Shown: positions 4,768 through 43,818 of the stretch, one piece after another
How the letters are laid out: each line of letters begins with the position of its first letter
Numbering within the stretch: the first letter of the stretch is position 1
From: Chitinophagales bacterium
GTDB lineage: Bacteria > Bacteroidota > Bacteroidia > Chitinophagales > Saprospiraceae
DNA: 64,000 bases
Assembly: GCA_013298845.1 (NCBI GenBank)
Contig: JAAFJN010000005.1
Location: forward strand, 1 to 64,000
Direction of reading: 5' to 3'
The notes under the pieces: model-generated
Databases searched by the model: none
What the model saw: only the letters and a program-made list of their open reading frames with translations
What the model was told of the DNA's origin: nothing
Position numbers and translations under genes: made by a program

Positions 4768-5961
4768 ATGCCCAACCGTACCAATACTGCGTGGGGAGTC
4801 CTTTTTTCGCTCCTTTTTTTGGGGTTTTGCCAAGCCCAAAACGCCCCCGCCCGCCTCACCGGAACCCTTGCTTTGTCCGATCAATGGAAACCCGTTGTGT
4901 ATCTTATTCAGCCGCGCCAATTCAACGAAATTGCCGCTAATTTCAGCGGTTTGGTCGTGGATTCTGCCGCCATTGACACCCGGGGAAATTTTGCTTTTTC
5001 GCGCCCGATCCCACCCGATCAGGCCGTTTTGTACCAAATTTGCGTGCAGCCCAAAGGCAGCCGCTACGCCAACCAACTCACCGACGACGATCCGCTAATG
5101 GCCAATTATTTCCCGTTGGTGCTGCAATCCGGGGTTTCGGTGCAGTTCACCGGCGAAGCCGATCGCCTGCAAGCCACCGCCGCCATTGCCCAACCGGATG
5201 CCCACAACGCGCGGTTGTTGCGTCTGCGCGATATTCGGCACGCGGCATTCCGGCGCGAGCAGCAATGGTTGGCACCGGGCACATCGCACGACGAAACCCA
5301 ATTGCTCAATCACGAAGCGGCCTTGCTCCGGTATCGCCGCGATTTGATGGCTTTTGCCGATTCCTGCGGCGATATTTTGCCCGCTTTGGTGGCGGCCCGG
5401 TGGGTTAGTCCCGAAAGTGACTACGAACGGGTGCCGGAATTTGTGGTGGGTCAATGCAATAAATGGACAACCCAACAACCGGCGCATCCGTGGGCGGCGG
5501 CGTTGTGCCAATGGAGCCGCGACGGGAAATTGCCCGTGCTCGTGGGCGATACTATTCCTAATTTTGATTTACCCACCGCCGCGGGCGATACGGTTCAGTT
5601 GTACCAATTGTTGGGCGAAAAATACACGATTTTGGACATTTGGGCATCGTGGTGCGCCCCTTGCCGCCGCGAAAACCGCACGGTGTTGGCGCCTTTGTAC
5701 ACCAAATACCACGAAAAGGGCCTGCAAATTATCGGTTATTCCATTGATAGCAGCCCCAACGCCTGGAAAGCGGCCATTGCCAAAGATGGTGCCGTTTGGC
5801 CCCATACATCACACCTCACGGGCGACGCCACCCCTTTTATGGAAGCCCTCCGCCTGACGACCATTCCGGCAAATTTTATTTTGGACAAAAACGGCAGGGT
5901 ATTGGCCAAAAACCTTCACGGAACGGAATTGGAACGTTTTTTAGTGATGAGATATGAGTGA
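4768..5961 (+). CDS. TlpA-like thioredoxin-fold disulfide protein
   Basis: The N-terminus (GVLFSLLFLGFCQAQ) is a signal peptide, so the protein is exported to the periplasm or anchored outside. Residues 30-250 resemble the DUF4369-type domain often placed before thioredoxin domains in this phylum. The C-terminal third is an AhpC/TSA-like thioredoxin domain with WASWCAPCRRENR, catalytic cysteines C296 and C299, and a cis-proline in TTIPANF. It probably reduces or isomerises disulfides in exported proteins. The last codons (VMRYE and stop) are written by a heptad repeat that continues beyond the gene, so the C-terminus may have been overwritten by repeat growth. Confidence 0.85.
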   Translation: MPNRTNTAWGVLFSLLFLGFCQAQNAPARLTGTLALSDQWKPVVYLIQPRQFNEIAANFSGLVVDSAAIDTRGNFAFSRPIPPDQAVLYQICVQPKGSRYANQLTDDDPLMANYFPLVLQSGVSVQFTGEADRLQATAAIAQPDAHNARLLRLRDIRHAAFRREQQWLAPGTSHDETQLLNHEAALLRYRRDLMAFADSCGDILPALVAARWVSPESDYERVPEFVVGQCNKWTTQQPAHPWAAALCQWSRDGKLPVLVGDTIPNFDLPTAAGDTVQLYQLLGEKYTILDIWASWCAPCRRENRTVLAPLYTKYHEKGLQIIGYSIDSSPNAWKAAIAKDGAVWPHTSHLTGDATPFMEALRLTTIPANFILDKNGRVLAKNLHGTELERFLVMRYE

Positions 5962-5984
5962 GGAGTGATGAGATATGAGTGAGA
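5943..5984. repeat. Two 21-bp units of a heptad repeat
   Basis: AGTGATGAGATATGAGTGAGG is followed at once by the same sequence with a final A. Each unit is three heptads (AGTGATG, AGATATG, AGTGAGG/A). The first copy encodes the end and the stop codon of the thioredoxin gene. The heptads resemble those at 195-240, read on its minus strand. Confidence 0.85.
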
Positions 5985-6003
5985 AGAGATAAGAAAAAAA
6001 CTT

Positions 6004-6070
6004 CTAATATCTGCTATCATATATCGTCAATCATATATCAAAATAACATACGGGCAAAACCTACAAAATA
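6004..6070. repeat. 67-bp direct repeat, left copy
   Basis: This copy begins CTAATATCTGCTATC and ends ACAAAATA. The copy at 6950-7016 differs at only three positions by eye. Its first 36 bases have a seven-base period (CTAATAT, CTGCTAT, CATATAT and so on). Together the two copies bracket the AT-rich lipoprotein gene. Confidence 0.9.
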
Positions 6071-6072
6071 CG

Positions 6073-6125
6073 CAAAAAGCCGCTACGTGCTGGTTTGATT
6101 TATTAGGCTACGCTTGCAGCACGGC
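6073..6125 (-). terminator. Terminator of the lipoprotein gene
   Basis: On the minus strand GCCGTGCTG pairs with CAGCACGTAGCGGC (a four-base bulge, GTAG) across a loop of about 24 bases, followed by TTTTT. It lies just past the minus-strand lipoprotein stop codon. Confidence 0.55.
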
Positions 6126-6135
6126 CACACAGTAC

Positions 6136-6738
6136 TTAGAAGTCTTTTATACCTTGCTTTTCTCTCTCTTTATCTAAACTGTCTTTCCGCACCTGAAGCA
6201 TTTTATAGGTTACAATGTCCGTATATTCAACAATTGCCTCATCATGAATATTACAAAATACATGAACCTTTAAATTTCCTTTGTATAGAATTCTACCCTC
6301 ACAATCAGTAAGACCATTATTCGGCTCCTTTAACAACTCTCCAAGTTGATACTTTCTAATAATATTTAGTGCCATTTCATTAACACACAATGAAACGCTA
6401 GTTTCTGGTTTTGCAAATACGCGAAGTTGATAAAGCCTATCATCATGATATTCTGATTTTATATAACAACGATATTCATTTGAACTTAGACCTTTCATAA
6501 GATAATAGAATCCATTCTCATCAGATGCGACTTTTTTCTCTTTTGCTAAATTAAAAAGATGCATATCGAATTCCTTTGGTGTCATCCCAAACCTAAAACC
6601 TAAAAAAATTGTATCAATTTTTTCATTGCTTTTCAATGCCTGCTCTTCAGCAGATACCTGTTTTTCATAGACTGAGGGTTCTTGACAAGAAACAAACACA
6701 ATAGTTAAAAGTAAAATCTCTAAAAACATTTTTTTCAT
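6136..6738 (-). CDS. Putative lipoprotein of unknown function
   Basis: The 200-residue product begins MKKMFLEILLLTIVFVSCQE: a lipoprotein signal peptide with lipidation cysteine at 18. The mature part is hydrophilic and includes IDTIFLGFRFGMTPKEF, a motif style seen in many uncharacterised Bacteroidota lipoproteins; I cannot assign a function. The base composition is clearly more AT-rich than the flanking genes, with codons such as TTT, AAT and ATA, which suggests separate acquisition. The gene sits alone between two 67-bp direct repeats, with its own promoter and terminator. Confidence 0.75.
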   Translation of the reverse strand: MKKMFLEILLLTIVFVSCQEPSVYEKQVSAEEQALKSNEKIDTIFLGFRFGMTPKEFDMHLFNLAKEKKVASDENGFYYLMKGLSSNEYRCYIKSEYHDDRLYQLRVFAKPETSVSLCVNEMALNIIRKYQLGELLKEPNNGLTDCEGRILYKGNLKVHVFCNIHDEAIVEYTDIVTYKMLQVRKDSLDKEREKQGIKDF

Positions 6739-6762
6739 AATGTCACTTATTTAAATTAACGG

Positions 6763-6770
6763 CAAAATTA
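6763..6770 (-). promoter_or_regulatory. TAnnTTTG promoter box of the lipoprotein gene
   Basis: TAATTTTG on the minus strand, about 24 bases before the ATG at 6738. It is the Bacteroidota -7 motif, leaving a leader of roughly 20 bases. Confidence 0.6.
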
Positions 6771-6949
6771 GCGCGTAAACCTTAAATACACCTACCAATT
6801 TTATAAAAACTTCAGAGATATTTTTCATAACCTACTTTATTAATCTATTTCGATAAGCATATTCAGATAACTTCATTTTACCACTACTGCTGCAACTACA
6901 CTGCTACCCAACTCCTCTGAGTTACGAATCAGCAAAAGAAAAATAACTC

Positions 6950-7016
6950 CTAATATCTGCTATCATATATCGTCAATCATATATCAAAAAAACATACGAG
7001 CAAAACCCACAAAATA
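6950..7016. repeat. 67-bp direct repeat, right copy
   Basis: This is the same 67 bases as 6004-6070 with three substitutions, in direct orientation, about 945 bp downstream. Between 6771 and 6949 I see only AT-rich non-coding sequence. Confidence 0.9.
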
Positions 7017-7023
7017 TCAAACA

Positions 7024-7051
7024 CTTATCTCTCATAGTTCATCTCTCAAAT
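7024..7051. repeat. Degenerate heptad repeat before jetA
   Basis: Read on the minus strand the sequence breaks into GAGATGA, ACTATGA, GAGATAA and similar units, the same family as at 5943-5984 but more degenerate. It lies immediately upstream of the jetA promoter box. Confidence 0.55.
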
Positions 7052-7056
7052 ACTGT

Positions 7057-7064
7057 TATCTTTG
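7057..7064 (+). promoter_or_regulatory. TAnnTTTG promoter box of the Wadjet operon
   Basis: TATCTTTG stands six bases before a GTG at 7071. This decides the start: the frame also opens at a TTG (7062-7064), but that TTG lies inside the promoter box and would not be transcribed. The jetABCD message would be almost leaderless. Confidence 0.7.
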
Positions 7065-7070
7065 CGGCCC

Positions 7071-8567
7071 GTGCAACAACAACGCGAATACATTGAACGG
7101 TTATTTCAACAAACCAATGCACTACAACTGCTCCGCGACAGCCGGGCGGTGATTGTTATTTCGTTTTTGAAAATAGCCTTTGCCGATGGCCGAAAAAGTA
7201 TTGGGCAAGAGGAACTAACCACGCTTTTGGCCAATTTTCTTCCCAATTTTGACGAAAAAGAAGTGTTTGACGAGGAAAATACCGCCGTCAACGCGGATCT
7301 TTTTGACCGGTACCGCAACAAGGCAAAAAGCCTGCTGCGCGATTGGGAAAGCACCAAAAAACGGTACCTCCGGGGCGATAACAACGCCGATGGGCAATAC
7401 GAATACAGCCTCACCGAACACGTGGTGCGCGTTTGGCAATGGCTCGATAGCCTCGAACAGCGGGAATTTACCGGTACCCGCTCGCGCCTCGACGATATTT
7501 TTGAAAAAATCCGCCGTGTGGTGGAAAATAGCCGCGAAAAAACCGACGCCGAACGCATTGCCGAACTCCGGCAAAAACAACGGGACATGGAGGCCGAAAT
7601 CGTGGCTATTCAAACCGGCAAAAGCCCGTATCAGCCTTTTGATAATACCCGCCTCCGCGAAGAATACGACGGTTTATTGGAGCAAATTCGCGCTCTTTCC
7701 ACCGATTTTAAAGCCGTAGAAGGGCACTTCGAACGCATCCGCACCGAAATGCTCCGCCAACAAGCCGCCCGACAAGGCAGTAAAGGTGCCCTGCTCGGCT
7801 CCGCCCTCGATGCCCGCGATGCCCTCGATCGAACGCCGCAGGGCATGAGTTTCAACAGTTTTTTTGAAGAAATAAGGGACCAACAACGCCTCCAACAGTT
7901 TGAAACCAAAGTGGCCGAACTGCTCAACGTGCTCAATGAACGCCAAATTGAACACCCCAACGACCAATTGCTGGTGCGCATGTACCGCCACCTGCTGGGC
8001 GAAGCGCAACCCGTGATGAATGCCAACCGGCGCATTGCCGACCGAATTACGCGTATTGTGGCCGAAAACGCCACCCACGACCGCCAATTGCTCCGCGAAC
8101 GCCTCGGGGAAGTGAAGGCGTTGCTGCTGAGCAACGCTTTTTTGCAAAAAAATATTGACTCCAATTTGCCCCTGTGGGAAATGGACAGCGATACCGCTGC
8201 GATACAGTTGCCGCTCGAAAAAGCCCTCAAAACCCAAACCGACCGCACCCGGTCGGGGTACGCATTGCCCCGGAAAAACACCGATGAAAAACCCGAACTG
8301 GCCCTCGGGGCGGATGCTTCGATTGTGCTGCGCCTCCAGGCCAATATCGAACAAGCCCTGGCTTTGGCGCAGGAAGAAACCCTCGCCCGGCTGCTGGAAC
8401 AGTTCCCCATGCAGGAAGGACTGGCCGAAATGCTAGCCTACCTCAATATTGTGGCACAACCCGTTAACCGGCATTTTATTCAACCCGACGAATCGGATAT
8501 TGTGCCGCTTGGCCCCGATCCCGATCTGTTTGTGGAAGGTCCACGGGTGTTTTTTGTGAAAGAGTGA
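7071..8567 (+). CDS. jetA: Wadjet subunit JetA (DUF3375, kleisin-like)
   Basis: The product of 498 residues matches the DUF3375 family: an N-terminal helical domain (YIERLFQQTNALQLLRDSRAVIVISFLKIAF) and long coiled-coil-rich middle. In Wadjet systems JetA is the kleisin-like subunit that bridges the SMC-like JetC heads and holds JetB. The complex extrudes loops on small circular DNA and lets JetD cut it. It is the first gene of a four-gene operon; its TGA overlaps the next start codon as GTGA. GTG at 7071 is preferred because it follows the promoter box. Confidence 0.93.
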   Translation: MQQQREYIERLFQQTNALQLLRDSRAVIVISFLKIAFADGRKSIGQEELTTLLANFLPNFDEKEVFDEENTAVNADLFDRYRNKAKSLLRDWESTKKRYLRGDNNADGQYEYSLTEHVVRVWQWLDSLEQREFTGTRSRLDDIFEKIRRVVENSREKTDAERIAELRQKQRDMEAEIVAIQTGKSPYQPFDNTRLREEYDGLLEQIRALSTDFKAVEGHFERIRTEMLRQQAARQGSKGALLGSALDARDALDRTPQGMSFNSFFEEIRDQQRLQQFETKVAELLNVLNERQIEHPNDQLLVRMYRHLLGEAQPVMNANRRIADRITRIVAENATHDRQLLRERLGEVKALLLSNAFLQKNIDSNLPLWEMDSDTAAIQLPLEKALKTQTDRTRSGYALPRKNTDEKPELALGADASIVLRLQANIEQALALAQEETLARLLEQFPMQEGLAEMLAYLNIVAQPVNRHFIQPDESDIVPLGPDPDLFVEGPRVFFVKE

Positions 8568-9217
8568 CCAAATTTTTGCCCAACATGGAAGAATTAAACA
8601 ACGTAGAACCGCATATCCCCGATACCACCGAAACGCCCCAAAGCAGTTTTGCACCGCTGGCCATTCGCCTGCTGAAAGGGGCTTTGTACGAAGAAGATAC
8701 CCGTTTATGGAACGATTTGGTCAAGGTACAGGAAGTGCCTTTGCGCCGTTATTTTAACGAAATTGGCCTCCAACTCATCGTAAATCGCAACGAAGGGTTC
8801 GCTTTTTTGCGCCAACCACCAGCCGTCCCCGACAATAGTGTACCGCCCCTCCCCCGGCTCATGAACCGCCGCACGCTCACGCTCGATCAATCGGTATTGT
8901 GCGTATTGCTGCGCGAAAGCCTCGAAGAACATACCGTGATTGATACCGCCAGCCGGGAACCCATTTTGACGCTGCGCGATATTCGGGAGATGGTAGAATT
9001 GTTTTTTCGCGAACGCACCACGCACCAACGTTTTTTAAAAGACGTAAAAAAAACGGTAAAAGAGGTAAAAGACATGGGCTTTTTGGAGGTCATTGGCAGT
9101 GAACAACCGCTGAACGAAGACGAAACCCGCTACCGCATCAAACGGATACTAAAAGCATTCATTGATGCCGACGAACTTTACCAATTATCCCAACAAATTG
9201 CCGGATTAATCGCATGA
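8564..9217 (+). CDS. jetB: Wadjet subunit JetB (DUF4194, KITE-like)
   Basis: A 217-residue DUF4194 protein containing two winged-helix-like regions, e.g. LLKGALYEEDTRLWNDLVKVQEVPLRRYFNEIGL and the C-terminal ETRYRIKRILKAFIDADEL. It corresponds to the MukE/KITE subunit that binds the JetA kleisin. The start is GTG at 8564 overlapping the jetA stop by four bases; an ATG at 8585 is an alternative. The stop overlaps the jetC ATG (ATGA), pointing to translational coupling. Confidence 0.93.
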   Translation: MTKFLPNMEELNNVEPHIPDTTETPQSSFAPLAIRLLKGALYEEDTRLWNDLVKVQEVPLRRYFNEIGLQLIVNRNEGFAFLRQPPAVPDNSVPPLPRLMNRRTLTLDQSVLCVLLRESLEEHTVIDTASREPILTLRDIREMVELFFRERTTHQRFLKDVKKTVKEVKDMGFLEVIGSEQPLNEDETRYRIKRILKAFIDADELYQLSQQIAGLIA

Positions 9218-12200
9218 CCGCACCCGAACTAACCCTTTTTTCCAGCGATGCCCAGTCCGCCGGGTTCCGTCTCGACCGCTTTGAGGTGTATAATTGGGGG
9301 GCTTTTGACGCCCAAATTTATTCTTTGCCGCTGTCGGGCGAAAATGCCCTGCTCACCGGAGCCAATGGCGCGGGTAAAACGACCCTCGTGGATGCCCTGA
9401 TTGCGCTGTTGAACCCCACACCGGAGCGGTATTTTAACCAATCGGCCGGTTTTGAAGACCGCAAACGCACCCGCCGCATGGAAGATTACGTGCGCGGCGT
9501 GTACGGCCATTCGAACAATGGCCGCGAACAATTGCGCGGTCGGGCCGACCAACCCGCCACGTATTCGGTGCTATTGGGCGTTTTTCGCAACAACGACCTC
9601 AAGCAGGTATTTACGCTGGCGCATTTGTATTGGTTTAAAAACGACGAATTGCAAAAACGTTTTTACACCGCACCCACGGCCCTGCGCATCGAAGAGCATT
9701 TTTTGTTCAAAGGTGAAATTCGCCCGTTTAATAGTTTTTTGACCAAAACATTTCAGGCCAAAGCCTACGACAGTTTTAACGAATTTGCCCTCGATTTTCA
9801 GCAAAAATTGGGCATGAGGCAATCCGAACGGGCCAATAATATGGCGGGGCGCACCAAACCGCTGCATTTGCTGGCCAAAACGGCGGGTATCAAAGTATTG
9901 GGCAACCTCGACGCGTTTATTCGCGATAATATGCTCGACGAGGCCAATATGGACGACAAATTTGACCAACTCAAAAAGGAATACGCCGACATTGCCGAAA
10001 CCCAACAAACCCTCGATAAAGCCACCGAACAGGAACGCATGTTGATGCCGCTGCTCGATAACAACACCCGTTACCTCGCTGCGGCAGTACAATTGCAACG
10101 CGCCGAGCGGGTGCAATCCGTCATTGTGCCGTGGTTCGCGCAGGAGTACGTGGGGTTGCTCGAACGCGAAATTGAACGCATTAAAAACGATATTGCCCGC
10201 CAAAATGCCGATTTGGAAGTCAGCGACGAGCGCCTCGAACAGTTGCGCGAAGAGGATAAAAACATCGGGATTCAATTGGCCAATAACGACGAAGGCCGCC
10301 GTTTGCAGGATTTACAAAGCCAAAAATTACAAAACGAAAACAAACTCAAAGAGCAACAAAAACGCGCCGACCAATACGCCCAAATCGTAAGGGAACTGGA
10401 CGGGAAATTTATTCCCGAACCCGATGCGGCCATGTTTTATTTGCAAAAAGAGCAAATTCAGGCGGAAGCCACCGCGTTATTGACCCAAAAAGACGGCCAA
10501 ACCGCCCAACGCGACGAATTGGTGGGCCAAAAACGCGATCTGGAACGCCAGGTGAATGAACTCGATCACGAACTAAAATCGCTCCGCCAACGCCGCAATA
10601 ACCTGCCCGCCGATTTGGTCGCCCTGCGCGAACGCCTCGCCCAAGGCACGGGTATTCCCGAAACGGACTTGCCTTTTGTTGGGGAATTGTTGCAAATTCA
10701 CCCCGATGAACGCGAAAAATGGGAAAAAGCCCTGGAAAAATTGCTGACGCCATTTTCGCTGCATTTGCTGGTACCGCCCCGACACTTGCGCCCGGTGGTA
10801 CAATGGGTGCGCGGCCAAAACCTCGGTACCCTGCTGCGTTTCACCGAAGCCGATGACCAGGCGGGCGAACCTTTGGTAGTGGATCAAAGCCGCCGAACGG
10901 CGTTTAATAAACTGGATGTGCAGCCCAAATCGCCTTTTGCCCATTGGCTGCGCGCCGAACTGAACCAACGCTATCCCCACACCTGCACCGAAGATACCAC
11001 CGAATACGAACGCCTCAACCGGGCCATTACGCCCGAAGGTTTGTACAAAAATGGAAAACAACACCAAAAAGACGATCGGCACCAAAAAATGAATTTTGTG
11101 TTGGGCTGGGACAATACCGAAAAGATCCGCCAATTGGACAATACCCTCCGCGAGGCGCAAGGGCATTTGCAAAAAATGGACGAGCGGATTTTGGTTTTTA
11201 AACAAAAAATGGCCCAATTAGACGTTAAATTGGCCAATTTGCAACGTTTGGGCGACATTACCGATTTTAAACAAATTGACACCAAAAGCACCACCGAAGA
11301 TATTCAGGACCTCATTGTCCAAATTGAAGCCCTGAGCCAAGCCTCCTCGCAATTGGCCCTCCTGCGCGAGCGCGCCAAAAAAGTGGCAGCCGACATTAAA
11401 GCCGAAAGCAGCCGCCGCGATGAATTGGTGAGAGCGGTGCAACAACGCAAAGATCAGTTAAAAAGCCGCAGCACGCAGTTGACGTTCAAACGCACTGATG
11501 CCGCCAGTCTTACCCCCGACCGCCAGCCCGATTTGCAAATTTTGGCCGAATACCTCGAAGGTTTGCCGCCGCTGGAATTGGACATGATTGAATCGGTGGA
11601 ACGCGAAAAACGGGCCGTTTTGCGGGGCGATATCGTGCGTTTGGAAAAAGAACAATCGGACCTGCGGTTTGTGCTCGAACGCCTCATGCAGGAGTTCAAA
11701 CAACCCAAAAAGGCCATTTTGGACCGTTTTCCGTCGTGGCCCAACGATACCGATGCCCTCGGCGAACCGCGCATGGAAAACATCGGGGATTATACCAGTT
11801 TGCTGGAACGGATTCAAAACGACCAGTTGCCCGCCCTGCGCGAGCGTTACCAGATCCGCGCCAGCAAGGATATTGGCAACGCCATGCAGGTGTTTCAGCG
11901 CCAATTGGAGGATCAACTCAACGACCACAAAGACAATATCCTGAACATCAACCGGGCGTTGCGGGCTTTGCCGTACACCCACGACACCTATTTGCAGGTG
12001 GTGATGGAAGAGGGGATGCGCAAAGGCCGAATCGGGGAATTTTACCAGTTGCTGCGTTCGTGGGACTACGACCGGGCTTCGTTTTTGGCGGCTTCGGAGG
12101 TGGAAAAATTGGATATTTGGCGCGAAACGGTGCAAAAAATTGGGACAATTATCCGGCGTTTGGACGAAAACCCCGATTGGCGCCGCGAAGTGACCGACGT

Positions 12201-12627
12201 GCGCAATTGGCTGCATTTTAAAACCCAACAATTGTACCGCGACAACGACACGGCGGTGAGTGGTACTTTGCAAGACAGCACCAGCGGCAAATCGGGGGGA
12301 GAACAGGCCAAACTGACTTATACGGTATTGGCCGCCGCGCTCACGTACCAGTTCAACATCAGTACCGACAGCCGCAACGCACGGTCGTTCCGGTTTATCG
12401 TGGTGGATGAGGCATTTAGCAAATTGGACCCGGAAAACAGCGCTTATTTGCTCGATTTATTGGGGAATTTGCATTTTCAAATGCTCATTATTACGCCCAA
12501 CACGGGCATTAATACGGGTGAAAAACGCATGAGTCATTTGATTTTTGTCAAAAAAGAATCCGAAACGCCCCCGCGTTCGGCGGCTTACGTGTATTCGGTT
12601 AAAGAACTTAAAAAGTTAACGGAATGA
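9214..12627 (+). CDS. jetC: Wadjet subunit JetC (SMC/MukB-like ATPase)
   Basis: A 1137-residue SMC-type ATPase. The Walker A GANGAGKT is at 49-56, the ABC signature SGGEQ at 1027-1031 and the Walker B FIVVDEAFSKLD with D1065 and E1066. The stretch between is long coiled coil (about 270-500 and 640-800) around a hinge-like globular part near 490-620, rich in Glu, Gln, Lys and Arg heptads. It powers DNA loop extrusion in the Wadjet complex. All ATPase residues are intact, so the system looks functional. ATGA overlap at both ends with jetB and jetD. Confidence 0.95.
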   Translation: MTAPELTLFSSDAQSAGFRLDRFEVYNWGAFDAQIYSLPLSGENALLTGANGAGKTTLVDALIALLNPTPERYFNQSAGFEDRKRTRRMEDYVRGVYGHSNNGREQLRGRADQPATYSVLLGVFRNNDLKQVFTLAHLYWFKNDELQKRFYTAPTALRIEEHFLFKGEIRPFNSFLTKTFQAKAYDSFNEFALDFQQKLGMRQSERANNMAGRTKPLHLLAKTAGIKVLGNLDAFIRDNMLDEANMDDKFDQLKKEYADIAETQQTLDKATEQERMLMPLLDNNTRYLAAAVQLQRAERVQSVIVPWFAQEYVGLLEREIERIKNDIARQNADLEVSDERLEQLREEDKNIGIQLANNDEGRRLQDLQSQKLQNENKLKEQQKRADQYAQIVRELDGKFIPEPDAAMFYLQKEQIQAEATALLTQKDGQTAQRDELVGQKRDLERQVNELDHELKSLRQRRNNLPADLVALRERLAQGTGIPETDLPFVGELLQIHPDEREKWEKALEKLLTPFSLHLLVPPRHLRPVVQWVRGQNLGTLLRFTEADDQAGEPLVVDQSRRTAFNKLDVQPKSPFAHWLRAELNQRYPHTCTEDTTEYERLNRAITPEGLYKNGKQHQKDDRHQKMNFVLGWDNTEKIRQLDNTLREAQGHLQKMDERILVFKQKMAQLDVKLANLQRLGDITDFKQIDTKSTTEDIQDLIVQIEALSQASSQLALLRERAKKVAADIKAESSRRDELVRAVQQRKDQLKSRSTQLTFKRTDAASLTPDRQPDLQILAEYLEGLPPLELDMIESVEREKRAVLRGDIVRLEKEQSDLRFVLERLMQEFKQPKKAILDRFPSWPNDTDALGEPRMENIGDYTSLLERIQNDQLPALRERYQIRASKDIGNAMQVFQRQLEDQLNDHKDNILNINRALRALPYTHDTYLQVVMEEGMRKGRIGEFYQLLRSWDYDRASFLAASEVEKLDIWRETVQKIGTIIRRLDENPDWRREVTDVRNWLHFKTQQLYRDNDTAVSGTLQDSTSGKSGGEQAKLTYTVLAAALTYQFNISTDSRNARSFRFIVVDEAFSKLDPENSAYLLDLLGNLHFQMLIITPNTGINTGEKRMSHLIFVKKESETPPRSAAYVYSVKELKKLTE

Positions 12628-13757
12628 TTTCCCCGGATCAAATTCGCCGCCGCGCCAACGCTCAATTGTACGCGTGGCTGGCCGAAATAGCCCGCACCAA
12701 CGCCCCGTTTGCCCCGGTGGTACTCGACCGATTGGGGGATAAACTGGACGACCCCGACCGTTACGCGCAACTGGAAGCCATAACAGCCAATAGTAAATCC
12801 AGAACCGGATACGGTTACCGCGTTGAACTGGAACCGCCGCGCCTGGGCAGCAAGGTGCAACAAAGCCGAATTCGGGCGTTGGTTTGGGACTCAGAAACAG
12901 ATTTATTGCGTTTTTTAGGGGCGGAAGACTTGTTCCGCGATTTTAAAACCAACCTCGAACAGATTCAGCGGGAGGTACCGGCTTTGCGGGCCTGGTGCCC
13001 CGAAAACGTCAAAAAAATAGTGGATTACGCCGCAATTTGGCCCCACCTCATTTTGGTGGTTCGTTTTTTTGAAGAAAATCCCACGCCGGATGTTACGTCT
13101 TTGCGGCTTTTGCCCATCAATGGGGTGGATACGAAATTTATCGAACGAAACGGCGGCATTTTAAGTCAATTATTGGACGTGGTATTGCCGCCCGAACGGA
13201 TTGACGCTACACAAAAGCAGTTTAAGCGGCGCTATCGTTTGCCCGAAGAAGAAACTTGTATCGTCTGTTACTGGAATGATGCTAAATGTATAAAGATGTT
13301 CGAAGGCGGAACGGGGTTAATCGTTCCGGCGGATCAATTTTTGAGCACTGCACTGCCGTTTGGTCGCGTGATTATTGTCGAAAACCAGGCCAGTGTGCAA
13401 CAATTATTGGCACAACCGCTGCCCGATACCTTGGTGATTTTTGGTTCGGGCTGGCGGGTAAATATCCTGCGGGAAGGTACCTGGCTTCAGGAGCGGGAGG
13501 TGTATTATTGGGGCGACTTGGACACGCACGGATTGGCCATTTTGAGTGCGGTGCGCGGTTTTTTGCCCCATGTAATTCCCCTTTTAATGGACGAAGCCAC
13601 TTTTGATGCCCACTCGGCGGCGTGGGTACCGGGTGCCGATTACACCGGTGCAACACCCGCCAGCCTTACGCCCGATGAAGTCCGTTTGTTTGAACGGCTC
13701 AAAGCGGGTCGCCTGCGGCTGGAGCAGGAAAGGATTCAGGGGGCAGTGGCGCTGTAA
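12624..13757 (+). CDS. jetD: Wadjet nuclease subunit JetD (DUF3322-DUF2220, Toprim)
   Basis: The 377-residue product has an N-terminal DUF3322 region followed by a DUF2220 Toprim domain. The Toprim metal ligands are visible as E253 in VIIVEN and D298/D300 in YYWGDLDTHG. JetD is the endonuclease that cleaves plasmid DNA once the JetABC motor has stalled on a small circle. Its ATG overlaps the jetC stop (ATGA), completing the typical order jetA-B-C-D. No transposase or integrase is next to it. A weakly organised 150-bp gap leads to the response-regulator gene. Confidence 0.95.
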   Translation: MISPDQIRRRANAQLYAWLAEIARTNAPFAPVVLDRLGDKLDDPDRYAQLEAITANSKSRTGYGYRVELEPPRLGSKVQQSRIRALVWDSETDLLRFLGAEDLFRDFKTNLEQIQREVPALRAWCPENVKKIVDYAAIWPHLILVVRFFEENPTPDVTSLRLLPINGVDTKFIERNGGILSQLLDVVLPPERIDATQKQFKRRYRLPEEETCIVCYWNDAKCIKMFEGGTGLIVPADQFLSTALPFGRVIIVENQASVQQLLAQPLPDTLVIFGSGWRVNILREGTWLQEREVYYWGDLDTHGLAILSAVRGFLPHVIPLLMDEATFDAHSAAWVPGADYTGATPASLTPDEVRLFERLKAGRLRLEQERIQGAVAL

Positions 13758-20330: not shown

Positions 20331-20590
20331 GGGCGACCCTTGTGGTCGCCCATCTGTGGCATGTCTGAGGGTGTAGACCCTCGTGGTCGCCCCTAGTGGC
20401 ATGTCTGAGGGCACACAGCACCGTAAGGGCGGCCCTTGTGGTCGCCCATCTGTGGTATCTCCGAGGACGTAGTACCCTCGTGGTCGCCCATCTGTGGCAT
20501 GTCTGAGGGTGGGCACGAAGGGCGACCACAAGGGTCGCCCCGACGTCGCCATCTGTGGTATCTCCGAGGGCGTATACCCCAATATCTCGT
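20331..20590. repeat. Hairpin-rich intergenic repeat array before a helicase gene
   Basis: About five imperfect units of roughly 40 bases contain GTGGTCGCCCATCTGTGG, then CATGTCTGAGGG or TATCTCCGAGG, then a small hairpin such as GAGGGTGTAGACCCTC. GGGCGACC and GGTCGCCC inverted pairs run through the array, so long stems can form. The array begins right at the stop codon of the lamin-tail gene and reaches the helicase start region. The spacing and sequence variation exclude a CRISPR array. It may be a REP-type element cluster. Confidence 0.8.
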
Positions 20591-39687: not shown

Positions 39688-39857
39688 GAACACCGAACTG
39701 AAAAATGAACACCGAACACCGAACATTCGAACACTGAACATCGAACTGAAAATTGAACACCGAACACCGAATGTCGAACACCGAACACCTAACTGAAAAG
39801 TGAACGCCGAACACCGAACCGTTCGAACACCGAACATCGAACTGAAAATTGAACAGC
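39688..39857. repeat. Heptad-type repeat array of GAACACC units
   Basis: A 170-bp array built of GAACACC, GAACATC, GAACACT and GAACTGAAAATT-like units, mostly seven bases apart with occasional five-base insertions. An inverted copy lies at 40026-40091. Between them (39858-40025) I see no gene. Variation between units and lack of constant spacers rule out CRISPR. Confidence 0.85.
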
Positions 39858-40025
39858 GACGTGTTGAAAAGCCAACATCGAAGTATCGGCTTATAAAACA
39901 GCCTTACCGCATTCCATTATCAACCCTAAATGCTGTGCATAATTTAAGCAATCGTCACTCAAACGCGGGATAAAACCACATCATGCTCTACGGCGTATTA
40001 AAACCTTATTCGATTAAACACTACT

Positions 40026-40091
40026 TCGGCATTCGATATTCGGTGTTAGGTGTTCGGTGTTCAATTGTTCGATGTTCAATTGTTCAATTGT
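40026..40091. repeat. Inverted partner of the GAACACC array
   Basis: This contains GGTGTTC and GATGTTC units, the reverse complement of the array at 39688-39857, interspersed with AATTGTTC. It ends exactly at the stop codon of the lipoprotein gene on the minus strand. Confidence 0.8.
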
Positions 40092-40703
40092 TTATTCCGT
40101 AAAAAAATCATCCGCGTTGACGTACAGTATTTTTACTTTTTGGGGATCGGGTGCCAAGGCGGCATTGCGCTGAATGAGCCGGATAAACCGTTTGGATTGT
40201 CGTCCCATAAAATGGGTCCAATACACAATAATTACCCGTTCGTGGGGCAAAGGACGGACGGTTGCGGTACCAATCATGGGTTGCAGGTACCGCAACTGGG
40301 TAGAAAGTGACACTATACTGTCTAAGGGAGCCTGTTGACGCGGGGGGAACACGTCGAAGGCATGGGTGCGGTTCCAACGTAAATTGGGGAAACCTCCCGC
40401 GTAACAGTTGACGTGGAAGGTTTCCAATGCTCCGTTGGAAGTATAATACAAGGCTTGCAACGGCTGTACATGATTTTTGATCGCTACCCGATGTTGACTG
40501 GTATCCCATTGCAACAACATGGCACGGTAACCGGTATCTATCCGATAACTATCCTGCGCCGGAATACCGTATCGTTTTGCTACGCGCATGATGTCCTCCG
40601 GGGAACGGGCACCCGGGGTTTTGAGGCCATAAAGTGCCGCACAACCAGTGTTCAATCCTGCCAAAAGGAAAAGCAAAAGGCGTACAAACGGGTATTTCCC
40701 CAT
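40092..40703 (-). CDS. Putative lipoprotein
   Basis: The ATG at 40703 (MGKYPFVRLLLFLLAGLNTGC) gives a lipoprotein signal peptide with lipidation cysteine at 21 and 203 residues; the longer frame starts 31 codons upstream without such a signal. The mature part (VKNHVQPLQALYYTSNGALETFHVNCYAGGF) is unfamiliar; the segment VRPLPHERVIIVYWTHFMGRQSKRFIRLI has the form of a thioredoxin-like beta-strand but lacks CxxC. No function is assigned. A small frame precedes it by 16 bases. Confidence 0.65.
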   Translation of the reverse strand: MGKYPFVRLLLFLLAGLNTGCAALYGLKTPGARSPEDIMRVAKRYGIPAQDSYRIDTGYRAMLLQWDTSQHRVAIKNHVQPLQALYYTSNGALETFHVNCYAGGFPNLRWNRTHAFDVFPPRQQAPLDSIVSLSTQLRYLQPMIGTATVRPLPHERVIIVYWTHFMGRQSKRFIRLIQRNAALAPDPQKVKILYVNADDFFTE

Positions 40704-43335: not shown

Positions 43336-43483
43336 AAGTATATATAATTATTTTTTACAACCATATAAAAAAGATTGTTTCACTCGGCTTTTAAAAAAGA
43401 TCATGCTTCATCAGTATAGTTCAATTGTATTCAAGGTTTCTAGAAAATTATTTCACCTTATTTGTATCCTGACTGTTTCTCCC

Positions 43484-43633
43484 CGTTTTGTTGCTACAAA
43501 GGTAAAGGCCCTTTTTCGTGCTGTAACCGACACTTTTGCAGTGGATTTTGGTGCTTTTTTGCGTTTTTTCACCCCAATTCGTTGCGTAAGTCACTGTATT
43601 TCAAACACTTATCCGTTTTTGATTTGGTCGCGG
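43484..43633. repeat. Promoter-containing repeat, copy nearest the serine hydrolase
   Basis: About 150 bases that recur 185 bases further right at 43669-43818, with roughly 20 differences by eye. On the minus strand both contain TACCTTTG (here at 43504-43497), so each copy carries a promoter aimed at the serine-hydrolase gene. Confidence 0.85.
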
Positions 43634-43668
43634 TTATGGTTTATTTTTTATTGTCTAATCGTTCTCTT

Positions 43669-43818
43669 CGTTTTGATGCTACAAAGGTAAAAGCCCTATT
43701 TCGCACTGTAACCGACACTTTTGCAGTGGATTTTGGCACTTTTTTGCGTTTTTTCACCCCGATTCGCTGCATAAGTCACTGTATTTCAAACATTTATCAC
43801 TTTTTCATTTGGTGCAGG
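43669..43818. repeat. Promoter-containing repeat, distal copy
   Basis: Second copy of the 150-bp block, with its TACCTTTG box at 43689-43682 on the minus strand. Both share the exact stretch GTAACCGACACTTTTGCAGT. The rest of the long gap 43336-44360 holds a gene remnant, a hairpin element and a promoter. Confidence 0.85.

Follow-up and report, generated by a model that had tools for sequence, protein, structure and literature searches.

A putative lipoprotein gene in the genome of a Chitinophagales bacterium (Saprospiraceae) is enclosed by two sister copies of a dispersed repeat, and the locus has a slightly better than even chance of having formed when homologous recombination or template switching placed a gene-bearing segment at the core of an arm-core-arm element that was already there. 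The locus is located in the window, that is, the whole stretch of 64,000 nucleotides analyzed here (positions 1 to 64,000 of contig JAAFJN010000005.1), between a gene for a thioredoxin-like protein and a type I Wadjet operon. A purine-rich left heptad arm (AGTGATGAGATATGAGTGAGG..., 5943–5993, plus strand), identified with TRF as a clear 7-bp array (score 83) and similar to many arms in the same genome, begins at the 3' end of the thioredoxin-like gene. It is followed by core copy 1 (5994–6070, plus strand), which consists of the heptad-periodic words TCTGCTA, TCATATA, TCGTCAA, TCATATA and TCAAAA with a tail, and by an adjoining inner module, ACGCAAAAAGCCGCTAC...GCTTGCAGCA (6070–6121, strand not assigned). 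Beyond the lipoprotein gene (6136–6738, minus strand) lie core copy 2 (6940–7016, plus strand) and a right junction with an inverse heptad arm (TCAAACACTTATCTCTCATAGTTCATCTCTCA, 7017–7050, plus strand). The direct repeats, 77 nt each with a spacing of 946 nt, are 94% identical and differ at five positions (5998, 6003, 6044, 6053 and 6062); the 67-bp copies with three differences that had been described in the initial annotation correspond to the last 67 nt (6004–6070 and 6950–7016), which have exactly 3 mismatches. The heptad repeats that had been noticed on both sides are clear on the left; those on the right (approximately 7024–7050) are present but short and degenerate and, as had gone unnoted, are the inverse of the left array. 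The two arms, separated by 1 kb, form a degenerate pair with 76% complementarity, and the match between them is, on its own, marginal, with 6% of shuffles equally good. An Rfam search of the whole window produced no match.

The enclosed gene is AT-rich, as had been stated, and encodes an orphan protein of 200 aa with a lipobox-like VSC motif. Its GC content is 31.3% versus 49.4 ± 4.1% for 816 ORFs that were sampled from the same genome and chosen by length (at least 180 aa), the lowest value among these being 32.6%. Comparison with Pfam, NCBIfam, PHROGs and PADLOC detected no family above the cutoff, and an AlphaFold single-sequence model with a mean pLDDT of 49 was set aside. Matches are present in 41 of the 298 family genomes searched (own genome counted), the best with 28% identity over most of the length; the own genome encodes one weak paralogue, and no match was found in the 5 congeners among these 298 genomes or in the plasmids and viral contigs searched. 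With its extreme GC content, lack of congener matches and patchy distribution in the family, the gene looks foreign and probably acquired, which agrees with the earlier proposal that it had entered the locus. The promoter ascribed to it is partly substantiated, by a candidate Bacteroidota -7 box, TAATTTTG (6770–6763, minus strand; a pattern match only), but no -33/-7 pair was matched; the ascribed terminator is not, with no intrinsic terminator recognized at the 3' end of the gene and a fold z-score of +1.4.

The core repeat forms a dispersed family with 41 matches in its own genome (6.37 Mb in 89 contigs). The initial annotation was to be abandoned if all relatives proved identical and the genome contained no further copies of the repeat; because the core has 41 copies in its own genome, this is not the situation encountered. 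Searches of 42 congeners recovered two weak heptad fragments only, those of 296 family genomes short partial matches only, several of which are inverted pairs no more than about 0.1 kb apart, and those of viral contigs nothing. In other genera, the heptad part of the core is found as inverted pairs (G169 C148:8190-8296, G156 C265:6676-6757 and G292 C45:389-461), and the comparison suggests that words of the core heptads are common to several genera of the family. The core family is itself heptad-periodic (TCTGATA, TCTGCTA, TCATACA, TCATCAA, TCATATA and TCAAAAA, followed by a non-periodic tail). The modules flanking the cores are interchangeable between copies; the inner module of the window is placed after a core in loci L143, L147, L153 and L166 and at a contig end in L157. 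Several intergenic regions contain clusters of 2–4 copies, arranged either directly or inverted. In the window, the two cores are sister copies, more closely related to each other than to any further copy: they differ at 5 of 72 aligned positions, whereas at least 9 differences separate either of them from any other copy, and they have in common CGTCAATC, which is unique among the 35 aligned copies.

Period-7 arrays were surveyed in 1.315 Mb of the same genome, sampled mostly without regard to the repeat. The survey identified 85 arrays at lag 7, 40 at lag 14, which is a multiple of 7, and only 0–14 at lags 5, 6, 8–13 and 15; the strict 7-nt periodicity of intergenic heptamer-repeat elements is thus evident. 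The array words include GTGANNA, GAACANC and AGACNNN. The elements consist of a purine-rich period-7 array, a short center and an inverted array, and are usually found 3' of genes. Among pairs of purine-biased neighboring arrays, 15 of 17 show the purine-rich array first and its inverse second (+- 15, -+ 1, -- 1), and this inverted, convergent pairing extends genome-wide, with 22–230 bp between the convergent arms of paired arrays. Twenty-four paired elements fold far better than shuffles (z from -4.8 to -22.5). The arrays are mostly located outside called genes (76 of 85); convergent intergenic regions are enriched for them (20/50 versus 59/358, p 1.2e-5) and divergent ones depleted (1/50 versus 88/358, p about 1e-5). 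All 15 '+-' arm pairs are confined to within 500 bp, with none beyond, up to 4 kb, and no gene is enclosed by any of these 15 ordinary pairs in approximately 1.3 Mb. Because all convergent pairs are short-spaced and gene-free, a gene between arms is exceptional. Exact GTGANNA arrays number 660 in this genome, 333 in G208 and 244 in G327, and are absent from most congeners; congener G310 has none, yet contains other period-7 words. Several of the sampled G208 contigs start within heptad arrays (L252, L256, L260 and L266), so that these repeats seem to break assemblies. Runs of at least four T outside the arm ends were seen for 20 of 48 arms (L235 and other GTGANNA elements) against a background of 23%, which is suggestive only; such a run at the outer end of an arm is perhaps a terminator tail. 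The window contains a further paired element (39688–40092), in which a GAACACC-type heptad array and, downstream of it, its inverse (GGTGTTC) lie about 170 bp apart, and a CACTTTTCACTCTA heptad array (184–249) near the start of contig C45.

When the interval between the repeats was removed in a script, by fusing 5901–6070 to 7017–7080, the joined flanks aligned over approximately 155 columns, including left arm, core and right arm, with an intact single-core element elsewhere in the genome (L144, contig C4), which also provides the sole full-length match to the right junction of the window. Furthermore, the right arm sits between divergent genes, a setting in which heptad arrays are seldom seen; such a position would be expected if the gene arrived later. 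Together with the sisterhood of the cores, the gene-free arms elsewhere and the foreign appearance of the gene, these observations make insertion the best reading of the locus. The starting point would have been one ordinary intergenic element between the thioredoxin-like gene and jetA, of a type found elsewhere in the same genome, with a purine-rich arm, a single core and an inverse arm. A segment of about 0.95 kb, comprising a core, the GCCGC module and the AT-rich lipoprotein gene, would then have entered at the core by homologous recombination, possibly via single-crossover integration of a small circle or via template switching from another core, after which two sister cores would have flanked the gene and the original arms would have been outermost. 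We infer both the direction of this event, that is, insertion into an element rather than placement of two elements beside a gene, and RecA-type recombination; in principle, the segment could also leave by such recombination. The recombination at repeats proposed earlier is accordingly retained in part: the two repeats look like the result of one event inside one element but not like a cassette system. As for the elements, slippage or misalignment of 7-nt units in DNA that forms hairpins is the most likely source of both their origin and their variation, and their presence at gene 3' ends would be tolerated.

Several considerations count against insertion. The donor would have had to carry a core that is essentially confined to this species; two independent copies lying close together would likewise come to resemble sisters through gene conversion; the complementarity of the window arms is marginal; and cores, in contrast to heptad arrays, are also placed between divergent genes at other loci (4 of 29 further placed sites). 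No empty allele of the locus was found in the genomes searched, in which the thioredoxin-like gene of congeners is at most 61% identical; in the congeners that have this gene, the jet genes and the lipoprotein gene are both absent within 1.5 kb of it. A somewhat unlikely alternative is that two elements settled separately beside an acquired gene that was already present and were later equalized by gene conversion, so that nothing was captured. This scenario is compatible with the occurrence of 2–4 core copies per region in several intergenic regions and with the preference of heptad arrays for convergent regions (the 20/50 versus 59/358 given above), such as the gap between the thioredoxin-like and lipoprotein genes. 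Moreover, copy 1 resembles a core with the GCCGC module and copy 2 a core with an inverse arm, both of which exist separately, and a gene on contig C37 lies between two clearly non-sister copies. Independent settling is, however, at odds with three observations: the window copies are closer to each other than to any other copy and have a unique substitution in common, the joined flanks match a single intact element, and heptad arms are rarely found between divergent genes.

Insertion into a single element also has to be weighed against two kinds of dedicated mobility. The elements could be MITEs moved in trans by a transposase, with the gene as a passenger between transposed copies, as in a composite transposon. 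Like BrickBuilt of Porphyromonas gingivalis (PMC4596501), the elements are multi-copy, species-specific and intergenic, with inverted arms. However, instead of fixed terminal repeats, these arms consist of degenerate period-7 arrays that vary in length and in word, the 77-nt direct cores are far too long for a usual target-site duplication, and the outer ends are not constant, with AGTGA, preceded by variable sequence, as the most that they have in common. Composite transposons and MITEs are marked by fixed terminal inverted repeats and a target-site duplication, which were not found. No transposase is encoded between the repeats, as had been noticed at the outset, and this origin appears very unlikely. 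Still more improbable, to the point that we give it hardly any weight, is a cassette system in which, as in integrons, genes are exchanged by a site-specific recombinase with the core as its attachment site. The direct repeats do bound one gene with a candidate promoter, and on C37 direct cores enclose a second gene, but there is a single gene between sister cores, other clusters are mostly gene-free, and the repeat consists largely of heptads, with flanks that vary. Neither a tyrosine integrase with recurrent cassettes was found at the locus nor a recombinase ORF between the repeats. Different genes enclosed by other copies of the repeat, which the initial annotation had anticipated, were not found between sister cores. 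Direct cores less than 2 kb apart with a gene between them are limited to the window and C37, and the C37 gene, encoding 231 aa, was rejected as a second cassette: the cores flanking it are not sisters. In that region of the same genome (L158:5035-11045 on C37), direct cores extend over three consecutive intergenic stretches, with the 231-aa orphan (41% GC) and a long gene between them. Direct cores also delimit two longer intervals (C37 and C3), whose contents are ordinary called genes.

The adjacent Wadjet system, the presence of which is confirmed, lies outside the repeat feature. The type I operon jetABCD (7062–13757, plus strand) encodes JetA1 to JetD1 in order (PADLOC E-values of 1.8e-85, 4.4e-51, 5.5e-260 and 1.7e-88), with a candidate -7 box, TATCTTTG (7057–7064, plus strand; a pattern match), upstream of jetA, which probably starts at GTG 7071 as judged by comparison with congener G208. 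The lipoprotein gene was considered as a Wadjet accessory gene and rejected, given the lack of linkage: in congeners G208 and G254, the 1.5 kb preceding jetA contain neither this gene nor the core, and in family genomes with both the lipoprotein and Wadjet, the best matches are on different contigs. For the defense field, the message is negative, with no link from the lipoprotein gene to Wadjet.

Elements of this kind have been published already, for Xanthomonas and, in the form of stems or arrays, for Nostoc, Beggiatoaceae and some Bacteroidetes. In Xanthomonas campestris and X. axonopodis, GGGAATC heptamers form hundreds of intergenic arrays with suggested stem-loop or cruciform potential, including about 70 convergent inverted pairs per genome, always one array per strand, and few (7–8%) between divergent genes (PMC4692102). 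The present elements are similarly intergenic, paired in convergent inverted orientation and seldom located between divergent genes, but in place of a single G-rich, quadruplex-prone word they employ GTGANNA, GAACANC, AGACNNN and the TCATATA-type core, and they include composite modules and one element that holds a gene. TAACTGA heptamers are found in Beggiatoaceae, Cyanobacteria and some Bacteroidetes, and the intergenic arrays of Bacteroidetes include multi-heptamer assemblages with a suggested link to gene rearrangement (PMC4679880). An intergenic location in Bacteroidetes is thus common to both; in the principal genome of that study, however, the repeats are mostly direct and just upstream of start codons (PMC4679880), in contrast to the inverted pairs, the gene-3'-end bias and the different words seen here. 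The P6b stem of the Nostoc trnL intron likewise consists of heptad arrays, with class II NNTGAGT and with insertions and whole-repeat indels (PMC4476775), and the GATGAGT units of the window's clade fit NNTGAGT; the Nostoc stem lies inside a group I intron and is not, in that report, a dispersed genome-wide element. BrickBuilt, another species-specific, multi-copy, intergenic element of Bacteroidota with tandem repeats and inverted ends, has a 23-nt unit with a defined leader and tail (PMC4596501), unlike the 7-nt periodic arms without fixed ends described here. Slippage as an origin of heptamers in general has been proposed by others, as cited in passages of PMC4679880 and PMC4692102.

Convergent 7-bp-periodic elements, represented by one word in Xanthomonas, thus occur here with several unrelated words, all of which keep to the same period and orientation rule and share the bias toward gene 3' ends; one of these elements carries an apparently acquired gene. 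Two questions thereby become testable: the reason for the constant period of seven, and whether repeats of this kind admit new genes. A broader and quite unlikely generalization is that inverted period-7 elements act as landing pads, with common cores admitting foreign genes at gene 3' ends without an encoded recombinase, and that the fixed period with differing words across phyla would reflect one generating mechanism on hairpin DNA. Among other repeats in the window are a tandem duplication of 185 bp (43477–43813; 89% identical, 1.8 copies) and a 41-bp unit in about two copies (20335–20411) directly after a gene end.
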